DNA from: Gammaproteobacteria bacterium
Lineage (GTDB): Bacteria; Pseudomonadota; Gammaproteobacteria; Competibacterales; Competibacteraceae
Length of the DNA stretch: 64,000 nt
Reading direction: 5' to 3'
Assembly (NCBI GenBank): GCA_020846135.1
Contig: JADLEK010000080.1
Location: 1-64,000 of the forward strand
This document shows, piece after piece, positions 33,495 through 45,373 of the stretch. The position numbers were made by a program, and so were the translations under genes. Numbering within the stretch: position 1 is the first letter of the stretch; every line of letters starts with the position of its first letter. The notes under the pieces were generated by a model. It did not search any database, was not told where the DNA came from, and saw only the letters and a program-made list of their open reading frames with translations.

Positions 33495-34097
33495 TCAACA
33501 GACTCCTCGCCACCGCCGCCACCGCCGATAACCCAGCAACATCGCCAGCACGCCCCCGTACAGCAGCGGCTCGCTCAGATCAGCCTTGACCAGCCATGCA
33601 TAGTGCAACACGCCCAGCACCGCAATGAGATAAACCAGCCGATGCAAGCGCTGCCAGTTCTTCCCCAACCGCTTCATCATCCCGCGAGTCGACGTGATCG
33701 CCAATGGAATCAGCAGCAGGAACGCCGCAAAGCCGACGGTCAGATAAGGCCGCTTGACCACGTCCGCAGCAATGGCCGACCAGTCGAAAAACTGGTCGAA
33801 AATCAGATAGACAGCCAAATGCAGGCTGACGTAGAAGAACGCAAACAGGCCCAGCATTCGCCGGAATTGCTGCAACCGGTTCCAGCCGGTTAAGCGCCGC
33901 GCCGGAGTGATCGCCAGGGTCAGCAGCAGGAAGCGCAAACTCCAGTCGCCGGTGCGGTGACTGAGCGTTTCCACCGGATTAGCGCCCAACTGCCCTTGCC
34001 AGGCCAGCCAGCACAGCCACGCTAGCGGCAGGAGACAGCCAATAAAGATCAAAGGCTTGGCAGTGAGCCATAGCCGGCGGGCGAAATCAGGGTTCAT
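33495..34097 (-). CDS. msrQ: MsrQ, haem-binding membrane subunit of the MsrPQ methionine sulfoxide reductase
   Basis: About 200 residues, a ferric-reductase-like (YedZ) membrane protein with six helices. Visible features are SLHLAVYLIFDQFFDW, the histidines in LHRLVYLIAVLGVLHY, and ITSTRGMMKRLGKNWQRLH. It passes electrons from the quinone pool to periplasmic MsrP, which repairs oxidised methionines. msrP is normally the gene before it in the same operon; here none is present in the window. ATG 34097 is preferred over an in-frame start at 34109. Directly upstream on the same strand lie the two small RNA genes. Confidence 0.87.
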   Translation of the reverse strand: MNPDFARRLWLTAKPLIFIGCLLPLAWLCWLAWQGQLGANPVETLSHRTGDWSLRFLLLTLAITPARRLTGWNRLQQFRRMLGLFAFFYVSLHLAVYLIFDQFFDWSAIAADVVKRPYLTVGFAAFLLLIPLAITSTRGMMKRLGKNWQRLHRLVYLIAVLGVLHYAWLVKADLSEPLLYGGVLAMLLGYRRWRRWRGVC

Positions 34098-34121
34098 GGC
34101 GGGAGGCATTCATGCGGACAC

Positions 34122-34200
34122 AAAAAAAGCCGGAACTCGCGCTCCGGCTAAAGAACCACCAAAGGAAGGTTTGGAGAAGAACAACATCTAAACGATGTTA
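34122..34200 (-). ncRNA. Small RNA A, downstream member of a tandem sibling pair
   Basis: On the minus strand a complete transcription unit is visible. It has a sigma-70 promoter (34207-34236), a predicted start near 34200, a first hairpin AACATC-GTTTA-GATGTT, a single-stranded pyrimidine-rich linker with TCCTTTGGTGGTTCTTT, and a terminator hairpin (AGCCGGA/TCCGGCT) ending in seven T at 34128-34122. The transcript would be about 79 bases. Promoter, linker and terminator position are shared with unit B 157-160 bases upstream, while loop sequences differ. No plausible reading frame is conserved between the two. The terminator lies only 25 bases before msrQ. Confidence 0.7.
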
Positions 34201-34206
34201 GCAAGC

Positions 34207-34236
34207 AGTTTAGTCGGTTTTGCTGCAATGCGTCAA
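34207..34236 (-). promoter_or_regulatory. Sigma-70 promoter of small RNA A
   Basis: Minus strand: TTGACG (34236-34231), 18-base spacer beginning CATTGCAGCA, TAAACT (34212-34207). The spacer start is shared with the promoter of unit B (CAGTGCAGCA). Confidence 0.65.
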
Positions 34237-34277
34237 GATTTTCCGGGAATGCAACAAAAAAATTTTCGCAGGCGCAT

Positions 34278-34357
34278 AAAAAAACCGGAGCAATTAGCTT
34301 GCCCCGGTAAAAGAACCACCAAAGGAGGATTGAAAAACAACACCCAGATGAATGTTG
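34278..34357 (-). ncRNA. Small RNA B, upstream member of the sibling pair
   Basis: Predicted transcript of about 80 bases from near 34357 to the T run at 34284-34278. It begins with a weak hairpin CAACA...TGTTG, has the linker TCCTCCTTTGGTGGTTCTTT (an anti-Shine-Dalgarno-like CCTCC in a pyrimidine-rich stretch) and ends in a terminator (ACCGGGGCAA/TTGCTCCGGT with one mismatch). The 15-base block CCTTTGGTGGTTCTT is identical in unit A. The arrangement recalls tandem sibling sRNAs such as NmsRA/NmsRB of Neisseria, but sequence homology to these is not claimed. Confidence 0.72.
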
Positions 34358-34363
34358 CAGTGC

Positions 34364-34392
34364 AATATAAGATACTTGCTGCACTGCGTCAA
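34364..34392 (-). promoter_or_regulatory. Sigma-70 promoter of small RNA B
   Basis: Minus strand: TTGACG (34392-34387), 17-base spacer, TATATT (34369-34364). It is a near-consensus promoter, directly behind the end of the zinc-type alcohol dehydrogenase family gene. Confidence 0.75.
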
Positions 34393-34435
34393 CACTTGCG
34401 GAAAAATCATATAACGCCATTATTAATCAATGGAT

Positions 34436-35455
34436 TTAGTGATTTCGTAGCACGATCTTGCCCATCTGTTCCGCTGCCAGCAACCGCTGATGCGCAGCAA
34501 CCGCCTGCTCCAAAGGCAAAACCTGATCGATAATCGGCTCAATTCGGTACTCGGCGACAAAGCGCAACATCGCGGCAAATTCATCAGGCGATCCCATGGT
34601 CGATCCAACGATCCGCACCTGGCGGAAAAACAGCCGCACCAGGTCCAGCCCAGCGGGATTGCCGGTGGTTGAACCATAAACGACCAGCCGTCCGCCAGGC
34701 TTCAGTACCGAAAAACAGCCCTTGAACGCTGGCCCGCCGGTCCCATCCACCACTACATCCACCCCGCCGGTCAGTTTCGCCAACTGCTTATCCCAATCGT
34801 CGGCCCGGTAATTGACGCCGCCGGTCGCGCCCAGTTGCCGCGCCTGTTCCAGCTTGCGGTCATCGCCACTGGTGACGAAGACCTTGGCGCCCAATGCCAC
34901 TGCCCATTTCAAGGCAAAAGTCGCCACTCCGCCGCCAATCCCGGTCACCAGCACCGTCTCGCCCGGTTGCGCCGCGCCCTGGGTCATCAGCGCCCGCCAC
35001 GAAGTCAGCCCAGCCAGCGGGATCGCCGCTGCCTGTTCCCAGTTCAAATGCGCCGGTTTGGGAAACAGATGACCGGCGGGAACGCACAGGTATTCAGTGA
35101 AGGTTCCCGGATCGGGCATGCCCAGCACCCGGAAGGCCGGACTCGGAAAGCGGGGATCGGAACCCCAGTCATAGGCGGGATAAATCACCACTTCCTGACC
35201 GAGCCAATCCTGTTGCAGCAAGTCATCGGGAACATTCGGGCCGATTTTGTCCACCACCCCGGCTCCATCGGAACCGGCAGTGCAAGGCAGGTGGATGCCT
35301 GGATATTGGCCGAGGGTGATCCAGACATCGCGGCGATTCAGCGCCGAGGCGTGGAGGCGCACCCGCACCTGGCCAGGACCGGGTTCCGGGACAGCGACTT
35401 CTTCAACCTGCAACTGCTCAGGACCGCCGAGTTGGCGGAGGATGACTGCTTTCAT
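34436..35455 (-). CDS. MDR-superfamily NAD(P)-dependent oxidoreductase (quinone oxidoreductase-like)
   Basis: A 339-residue medium-chain dehydrogenase/reductase. The N-terminal GroES-like part holds SALNRRDVWITLGQYPG and the Rossmann part VLVTGIGGGVATFALKWAV (NADPH loop), followed by VDVVVDGTGGPAF. The cysteine cluster of the structural zinc is absent, as in quinone oxidoreductases and zinc-free MDRs. Substrate unknown. It stands alone on the minus strand, with the small RNA genes just downstream and the GltD-nifJ cluster divergent. The 291 bases between 35456 and 35746 hold no gene. Confidence 0.82.
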   Translation of the reverse strand: MKAVILRQLGGPEQLQVEEVAVPEPGPGQVRVRLHASALNRRDVWITLGQYPGIHLPCTAGSDGAGVVDKIGPNVPDDLLQQDWLGQEVVIYPAYDWGSDPRFPSPAFRVLGMPDPGTFTEYLCVPAGHLFPKPAHLNWEQAAAIPLAGLTSWRALMTQGAAQPGETVLVTGIGGGVATFALKWAVALGAKVFVTSGDDRKLEQARQLGATGGVNYRADDWDKQLAKLTGGVDVVVDGTGGPAFKGCFSVLKPGGRLVVYGSTTGNPAGLDLVRLFFRQVRIVGSTMGSPDEFAAMLRFVAEYRIEPIIDQVLPLEQAVAAHQRLLAAEQMGKIVLRNH

Positions 35456-43258: not shown

Positions 43259-45196
43259 TTATTTAGTGGCGCGGTTATCGACCAGATCGGTCACCACGTT
43301 TGGATCGGCCAAGGTCGAGGTATCGCCCAGCGCATCGACTTCGTTGGCGGCGATCTTGCGCAGAATGCGGCGCATGATCTTGCCGGAACGGGTCTTGGGC
43401 AGACCGGGCGCCCATTGCAGCGCATCGGGCGAGGCAATCGGGCCGATTTCCTTGCGGACGTGGGCGATCAGCTCCTTGCGCAGCTCCTCGGTGGGTTCGA
43501 CGCCGACTTTCAGGGTGACATAGGCATAGATGCCCTGACCCTTGATGTCGTGCGGGAAACCGACCACCGCCGCCTCAGCGACCGCCGGATGCAGCACCAG
43601 CGCCGATTCGACTTCCGCCGTTCCCATCCGGTGCCCGGAGACGTTGATTACGTCATCCACCCGCCCGGTGATCCAGTAGTAACCATCCTCGTCGCGGCGC
43701 GCGCCGTCACCAGTGAAATACAGACCCTTGTACATCGAGAAATAGGTGTCGATGAAGCGCTGATGATCGCCGTACACGGTCCGCATGATCCCCGGCCACG
43801 GGCGGGTAATCACCAGATTGCCATCGGTGGCGCCTTCCAGGAACTGGCCTTCGGCATCTACCATCGCTGGGCAGACCCCGAAGAACGGCCGGGTGGCCGA
43901 ACCGGGTTTCAGCGCAGTCGCGCCGGGCAGCGGGGTGATGAGAATGCCGCCTGTTTCGGTCTGCCACCAGGTATCCACAATCGGGCAACGGTCATCGCCG
44001 ACATGGTGGTAGTACCACTCCCACGCTTCCGGGTTGATCGGCTCGCCGACCGAACCCAGCAACCGCAGGCTCTTGCGGGAGGTACGCTTGACCGGCTCTT
44101 CGCCCTCGCGCATCAGTGAGCGAATCGCGGTCGGGGCGGTGTAGAAAATGTTGACCTGATGCTTGTCCACCACTTCCCAGAACCGGCTGACGTTCGGGTA
44201 GGTGGGGATGCCTTCGAACATCAGCGTCGTTGCGCCGTTGGTCAGCGGGCCATAGACGATGTAGCTGTGGCCGGTGACCCAGCCCACGTCGGCAGTACAC
44301 CAGTAGATGTCGCCATCGTGATAATCAAAGATGTACTTGTGGGTGATCGCAGTGTGCAGCAGATAACCGCCGGTGGTGTGCAATACCCCCTTGGGCTTGC
44401 CGGTGGAGCCGGAGGTATAGAGGATAAACAGCGGGTCTTCGGCGCCCATGTGTTCCGGCGGGCAGTCAGCGGAAGCCTTCGCCATCAGTTCGTGATACCA
44501 GACATCACGGCCTTCCTGCCAGGCGACGTTGCCGCCGGTGCGCTTGACCACCACGGTGTTCTTGACCGTGGGCGTGCTGAGCAGGGCCTTGTCGATATTG
44601 GCTTTCATCGGCACCTTGCGCCCGCCGCGCATCCCCTCGTCAGAGGTGATGACCAGATTGCAGGTGGCGTCGATGATCCGGTCCTTGAGCGAATCCGGCG
44701 AGAAGCCGCCGAACACGATGGAATGCACCGCGCCGATCCGGGTGCAAGCCAGCATCGCGACCGCCGTTTCAGGAATCATCGGCATATAAATGCAAATCCG
44801 GTCGCCTTTCTTGATGCCGAGGTCCTTGAGGACGTTGGCGAACTTGCAGACATCCTGATGCAGCTCCCGGTAGGTAACCTTTCGATCTTCATTCGGGCTG
44901 TCGCCTTCCCAAATGATCGCCACCTGATCACCGCGCTGCTCCAGATGCCGATCCAGGCAGTTGTAGCTGACATTCAGGGTCGCGCCGTCAAACCAGCGGA
45001 TATGGCCTTTGGTGAAATCCCAGTCCAGCACCTTGTCCCAGGGCTTGAACCAGGTTACGAACTGCTGCGCCTGCTCCGCCCAGAAACCTTCCGGGTCGTC
45101 CACCGACTGTTTATACATCGCCTGATATTTGGCATCGTTGATCCAGGCGTGGGCGGCGACTTCGGCGGGGACGGGATACAGCTTGACATCGGACAT
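43259..45196 (-). CDS. acs: Acetyl-CoA synthetase
   Basis: A 645-residue AMP-forming acetyl-CoA synthetase of the E. coli Acs type (652). Motifs: [19 protein letters not shown] (ATP loop), [37 protein letters not shown], and [17 protein letters not shown] with the lysine that Pat acetylates. It activates acetate to acetyl-CoA through acetyl-AMP. It is transcribed alone on the minus strand with its own terminator. The window thus carries two Acs enzymes of different length, plus Pat, aceA and aceB, a coherent acetate-assimilation set. Confidence 0.96.
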
Positions 45197-45373
45197 GAGG
45201 GTGTTTCTCCTTTGGTGAAAGGGTCGTTGTGCTGTTTACAACCGGATGAGGCGAGTCGTTGCGGGTCTTTCGCGTCCATCCGGTTCAAGCATTTTTATTC
45301 TAGTCTACGGTTGAACAGTTTGAGTCAACTGATTGGGAGCCAGATTAGCAATCTTCATATCATGGCGCCGAGA

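Follow-up and report, generated by a model that had tools for sequence, protein, structure and literature searches.

Two tandem sibling small RNA (sRNA) genes, units A and B, lie on the minus strand at positions 34122-34392 of the window (the whole stretch of DNA analysed here, 64,000 nucleotides), and their reading as sRNA genes with an anti-Shine-Dalgarno core is well supported, since conservation, covariation, synteny and further siblings all back what the first-pass annotation had proposed from the letters. What is added here are PhaR-type operators in the promoters of both units, two dispersed siblings, a class-wide spread of the family and a match of its linker to the ribosome-binding site of acs (acetyl-CoA synthetase). 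The reading that we lean towards is a circuit in which accumulating polyhydroxybutyrate (PHB) would titrate PhaR, the siblings would be made and acs translation would be blocked. In wastewater treatment, the contest between glycogen- and phosphate-accumulating bacteria is governed by PHB storage and acetate uptake; Plasticicumulans, in which the RNA family is also present, is a strong PHB producer. If the circuit is true, a post-transcriptional link from a storage sensor to acetate activation would account for the matching of uptake to storage, and the feedback would operate in those glycogen accumulators that vie for acetate in phosphorus-removal plants. With this family, about a fifth of the genomes sampled from the class gain a previously unannotated sRNA.

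Both units are about 80 nt long and are built in the same order, i.e., promoter, first hairpin, linker and a GC-rich terminator hairpin followed by a U-run, this 3′ U-run being the one feature seen that bears on Hfq binding. The predicted transcript of unit B (34278..34357, minus strand; 5′ end placed about 7 nt past the −10 box) follows the promoter TTGACG-17-TATATT (34364..34392, minus) and contains the anti-Shine-Dalgarno linker CCTCCTTTGGTGGTT (34314..34328, minus), near-invariant across siblings and relatives, and an intrinsic terminator (34278..34308, minus), whose hairpin at 34308-34284 runs into the U-run. Unit A, with a predicted transcript at 34122..34200 (minus), has the promoter TTGACG-18-TAAACT (34207..34236, minus), the linker CTTCCTTTGGTGGTT (34154..34168, minus), conserved in relatives, and a terminator (34122..34149, minus) with compensatory changes in which the hairpin at 34149-34128 precedes the U-run. 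The near-consensus sigma-70 promoters and the terminator hairpins with T-runs, which the first-pass annotation had described for both units, were found again by a consensus scan; two promoter-like sites were seen against 0.7 expected in shuffles. The linker copies (34314 and 34154) are exactly 160 nt apart, in agreement with the earlier figure of 157-160 bases, and the linker block that had been called identical in A and B measures 16 nt (CCTTTGGTGGTTCTTT). The CCTCC had been read correctly in unit B; unit A has CTTCC at the same place, and one relative has TTTCC. The two units align with 76% identity over 61 nt, R1 is 77 bits for unit B and 75 bits for unit A, and the folding of each 80-nt unit beats 200 of 200 dinucleotide shuffles (z −4.61 for A and −4.45 for B), the linker being unpaired only to about half in the model fold.

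The tandem pair recurs in most of the Competibacteraceae genomes searched, several of which are incomplete, and at most loci it is placed between the same two genes that flank it here on the minus strand: a zinc-type alcohol dehydrogenase-like gene (34436..35455) and an msrQ-like gene for a ferric-reductase-type membrane protein (33495..34109). The A-type, with the CTTCC variant, is conserved in 22 loci and the B-type in at least 25, where CCTCC is kept with few exceptions. One genome of the window's own genus (L116, G003:C92) has unit B alone at the locus, beside the same neighbours. Among 24 B-type sequences two-sided changes were found in 10 of 22 pairs, and double-change cells numbered 46 against 14.5 in shuffles, a value that none of 500 shuffles reached, which bears out the earlier proposal that pairing is kept despite divergence. 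The unit B terminator alone has compensatory changes in seven of its nine stem pairs.

Besides A and B, this genome carries two dispersed copies, C (contig 78) and D (contig 71), so that four copies are present in total. C and D have the same linker and terminator as the tandem pair; their first hairpins are unrelated, and their promoter block differs from that of A and B and is likewise conserved. Of 369 genomes sampled from the class, 79 proved to carry the family when searched with a covariance model, a check that the first-pass annotation had suggested; the E-values are rough, and the distant matches are independently backed by rplM synteny. Pattern and covariance searches together placed the family in Plasticicumulans and in all 12 Cardiobacteriaceae searched (Cardiobacterium, Dichelobacter, Rappaport and others). 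Among 24 loci inspected in other families, 17 have the element immediately upstream of rplM-rpsI and in the same orientation; a ferredoxin-like gene usually precedes it, and coq7 is sometimes nearby. This arrangement suggests an ancestral site.

The rplM-rpsI position, together with the fact that the pair in the window shares its strand with both neighbours, could also speak for a cis-acting role of the elements as leaders or attenuators, or for mere tandem terminators of the alcohol dehydrogenase-like gene, in place of trans-acting RNAs. We consider this very improbable, because both units come with a conserved promoter and a terminator of their own, just the linker and the terminator are common to siblings at unrelated loci, the Competibacteraceae and Cardiobacteriaceae copies persist without rplM nearby, and the linker is conserved more strongly than either stem in A- and B-type relatives. 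One further candidate, a putative fifth sibling at C48:46347 (G000:C48, L145 1548-1572), was rejected, as it has only a partial motif, CAATCCTCCTTCGGTGTTTC, with no U-run after it; it adjoins a long AT-rich inverted repeat. A viral origin was likewise dismissed: the 16-mer gave 101 IMG/VR matches, and among the loci examined only one had a nearby U-run, which belonged to a different RNA.

The promoters of A and B both carry palindromes of the TGCANTGCA type, whose core fits the consensus YGCRNYGCR. Unit B has two such cores on the minus strand, one (CGCAGTGCA, 34380..34388) overlapping the end of the −35 box and one (TGCACTGCA, 34356..34364) overlapping the end of the −10 box and the start site, while unit A has a single core (CGCATTGCA, 34224..34232, minus). 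The core is present in all 22 A-type promoters, in 26 of 27 B-type promoters (two cores in 23 of them) and in 24 of 25 phasin promoters, and in one of 38 promoters of C/D-type siblings; 0.2-0.7 is expected by shuffling. The TATATTGCACTGCAACA block of the second core of unit B also occurs in phasin promoters, and the TATATTGCANTGCAACA block is likewise found at two phasins of this genome that Pfam confirmed. The published PhaR motifs are YTKNTGCRNYGCANMAR in R. eutropha (PMC12849132) and YGCRNYGCR with AT-rich arms in S. meliloti (PMC12542648). The present genome encodes phaR itself (PF07879 at G000:C53:121581, 99 bits).

Co-occurrence of operator and regulator was followed in the 12 Cardiobacteriaceae. 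The operator is found at the −35 box in all eight phaR-positive genomes and is missing in three of the four in which phaR was not detected, all three being Cardiobacterium-type (p about 0.02, hand-computed Fisher test); these three look like one clade, so that the loss may be a single event. Motif, position and co-occurrence taken together suggest that PhaR represses the A and B promoters. Binding of the TGCANTGCA elements by a regulator other than PhaR, the RNAs themselves being real, would fit the small genome G418, which kept the operator and in which phaR was not found, and those Cardiobacteriaceae that have phaR without a neighbouring phaC. It seems to us unlikely, given that the element agrees with two published PhaR motifs (PMC12849132; PMC12542648), that the phasin promoters of these genomes carry it too and that it is missing in the Cardiobacterium-type clade without phaR. 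As a side observation, the small Cardiobacteriaceae genomes of Rappaport and Dichelobacter (L249, L250) keep phaR, and phaC is not beside it.

The predicted main target of the siblings is the acs mRNA (43262..45196, minus strand; Pfam ACAS_N and AMP-binding), whose ribosome-binding site contains CACCAAAGGAG (45207..45217, minus), an 11-nt complement of the linker stretch CTCCTTTGGTG. A target search seeded with the linker had been among the checks put forward in the first-pass annotation, and it was run as ACCAAAGGAG located 3-10 nt before ATG in 26 Competibacteraceae genomes with no preselection of genes. Perfect 10-nt complements at the Shine-Dalgarno position were found for 30 genes, and acs led with 10 of them; four others are one DctP-type TRAP carrier gene, two are lactate permeases, and the remaining matches include ABC or TRAP binding proteins and an acyl-CoA ligase. 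The total of 30 is weak taken alone, because a control with the reversed pattern yielded roughly half that number. In this genome acs is the sole perfect 10-nt match, 9 kb from the pair and in the same window, and it is an outlier among 799 candidate starts examined (11 nt, the next reaching 8).

Within Competibacteraceae 14 of 28 acs leaders have a perfect complement of at least 10 nt and the other half less than 10 nt, these orthologous leaders being non-independent observations and the Shine-Dalgarno sequence itself making up part of the match. The complement is at most 7 nt in 20 leaders of the prpE-like paralogue, none of which reaches 8, and at most 8 nt in acs leaders from 12 other families. 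Unreliably placed starts were left out of these comparisons; they belong to some acs leaders outside Competibacteraceae and, within the family, to four or five leaders that are fragmentary or misplaced. The calculated core duplex with acs has an energy of −17.9 kcal/mol for A, −20.4 for B, −22.5 for C and −20.4 for D. Phasin mRNAs, expected as the main target from the case of MmgR, were considered and set aside, as their leaders are not outstanding (ranks 20 and 27 of 90).

One may ask whether acs is singled out by the siblings at all. PhaR-controlled anti-Shine-Dalgarno RNAs could act on a broad, unspecific set of mRNAs, either all those with strong Shine-Dalgarno sequences or mainly those of transporters, acs being one of many. 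With its CCTCC(TTT) the linker is complementary to every strong Shine-Dalgarno sequence, TRAP, ABC and lactate carriers occur among the perfect matches, and sibling families of Burkholderia are predicted to hit a broad carbon-transport set (PMC5688073). We regard this as a less probable alternative that deserves some weight: perfect 10-nt matches number just 30 across the 26 genomes, with acs making up a third of them, and the conserved acs block extends upstream past the Shine-Dalgarno sequence, with CACCA conserved at 71-89% against 32-50% just upstream.

With acs as the preferred first target, the proposed circuit would run as follows. The sigma-70 promoters of A and B would be repressed by the PHB-binding PhaR at operators placed over the −35/−10 region, two in B and one in A. 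Titration of PhaR by PHB accumulation is established in other bacteria (PMC12849132; PMC12542648), and here PhaR would likewise be drawn to the granules once PHB accumulates, so that the siblings A and B would be transcribed. The exposed CTCCTTTGGTGG linker would then pair with ribosome-binding sites of mRNAs for carbon uptake and activation, acs first, and block translation of acs and of some carriers. The outcome would be a negative feedback, in which full storage leads to less acetate activation, and the operator-less siblings C and D may feed other signals into the same targets. While the RNA family, the operators, the phaR gene and the complementarity can be read directly from the genomes, we infer the transcription of the siblings, the binding of PhaR, the repression and the sign of the effect on physiology. 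A longer history, in which an anti-Shine-Dalgarno family that ancestrally sat next to rplM-rpsI underwent duplication in Competibacteraceae and came under PhaR control, with full PHB stores shutting down acs and the carriers, is plausible, and we place it slightly short of an even chance.

The family had not been recognised in the first-pass annotation, and every Rfam 15 family stays below its gathering score, both in the window region 34080-34440 and in distant members; a literature search with the linker sequence found no paper. The closest models below threshold are RF02278 (22.2 bits for unit A and 15.2 bits in the window, 31.1 bits for L265; gathering score 50), ncS16 (RF02866; 26.2 and 19.5 bits in the window; gathering score 48) and MmgR/alphaR8 (RF00519; 19.4 bits for unit A and 22.1 bits for L265; gathering score 41). 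In its working the pair would be most like MmgR of Sinorhizobium (S. meliloti), which is repressed by PhaR (AniA) and limits PHB accumulation (PMC12542648; PMC12559287). RNAs of the MmgR/alphaR8 group, including SisA-D of Caulobacter, share with A and B an unpaired anti-Shine-Dalgarno motif, a terminator hairpin and often several siblings, and the PhaR-type operator that marks the A- and B-type promoters stands in the MmgR promoter too (PMC12542648). However, that group is alphaproteobacterial and has a different core (CTCCTTTGGTGGTT), whereas here two tandem genes have one and two operators and the predicted lead target is acs, not a phasin. The link between PhaR and an sRNA is reported in S. 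meliloti; to meet it again in another class, with an sRNA family of different sequence, would point to more than one origin of the circuit.

The comparison with NmsRA/NmsRB of Neisseria (RcoF), drawn in the first-pass annotation, holds for the architecture, i.e., tandem siblings with UC-rich anti-Shine-Dalgarno regions in central carbon metabolism (PMC5362039), but extends neither to the sequence model nor to the predicted lead target. The NmsR model (RF02877, gathering score 52) is absent from matches up to E 10 in 34080-34440 and gives 17.6 bits on L265, and the Neisseria RNAs are tied to RelA and the stringent response, with targets in the TCA and methylcitrate cycles. The double-hairpin RNAs of the Betaproteobacteria toxic small RNA family (RF02278) resemble the present ones in their two hairpins and CU-rich ribosome-site complement and, in Burkholderia, in having 3-5 dispersed siblings with predicted carbon-uptake targets; they form no tandem pair, and in the accessible part of that report a PhaR operator is not described (PMC5688073). 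In ncS16 of Burkholderia the order of hairpin, CTCCT linker and terminator is similar to that of A and B. The RNAs are best filed as an sRNA family outside Rfam that belongs to a known kind and has, in Competibacteraceae, a variant that is tandem and operator-controlled.

Several smaller observations accompany these results. The C-type siblings have a long common promoter block, GCCGAAAAACAACGAAAAGTAGTATGTTTRCTCTAAATTTTTTGTTAGAATG, without the PhaR operator, which is carried by L143 1419-1575 (G000:C78), L191, L194-L195, L199, L211, L218, L227, L230, L234 and L237. Typical Competibacteraceae siblings of this type were also met on two contigs labelled as other phyla, 'Phycisphaerales bacterium GAO1' (L202, JACSSB010000394.1) and 'Synechococcaceae SM1_2_3' (L222, JAAUTD010000247.1), both of which are probably misbinned or mislabelled. 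Several promoters of rplM-linked loci among L258-L281 have TTGACA...AATATTAGAnAAT in common, and PhaR-type sites are present at L260, L261 and L267 from other families of the class. In this genome, PhaR-type sites stand upstream of an uncharacterised gene (L158, G000:C76:112177) and near an ABC binding-protein gene (L155, G000:C64:1131), both of which are possible members of the PhaR regulon.
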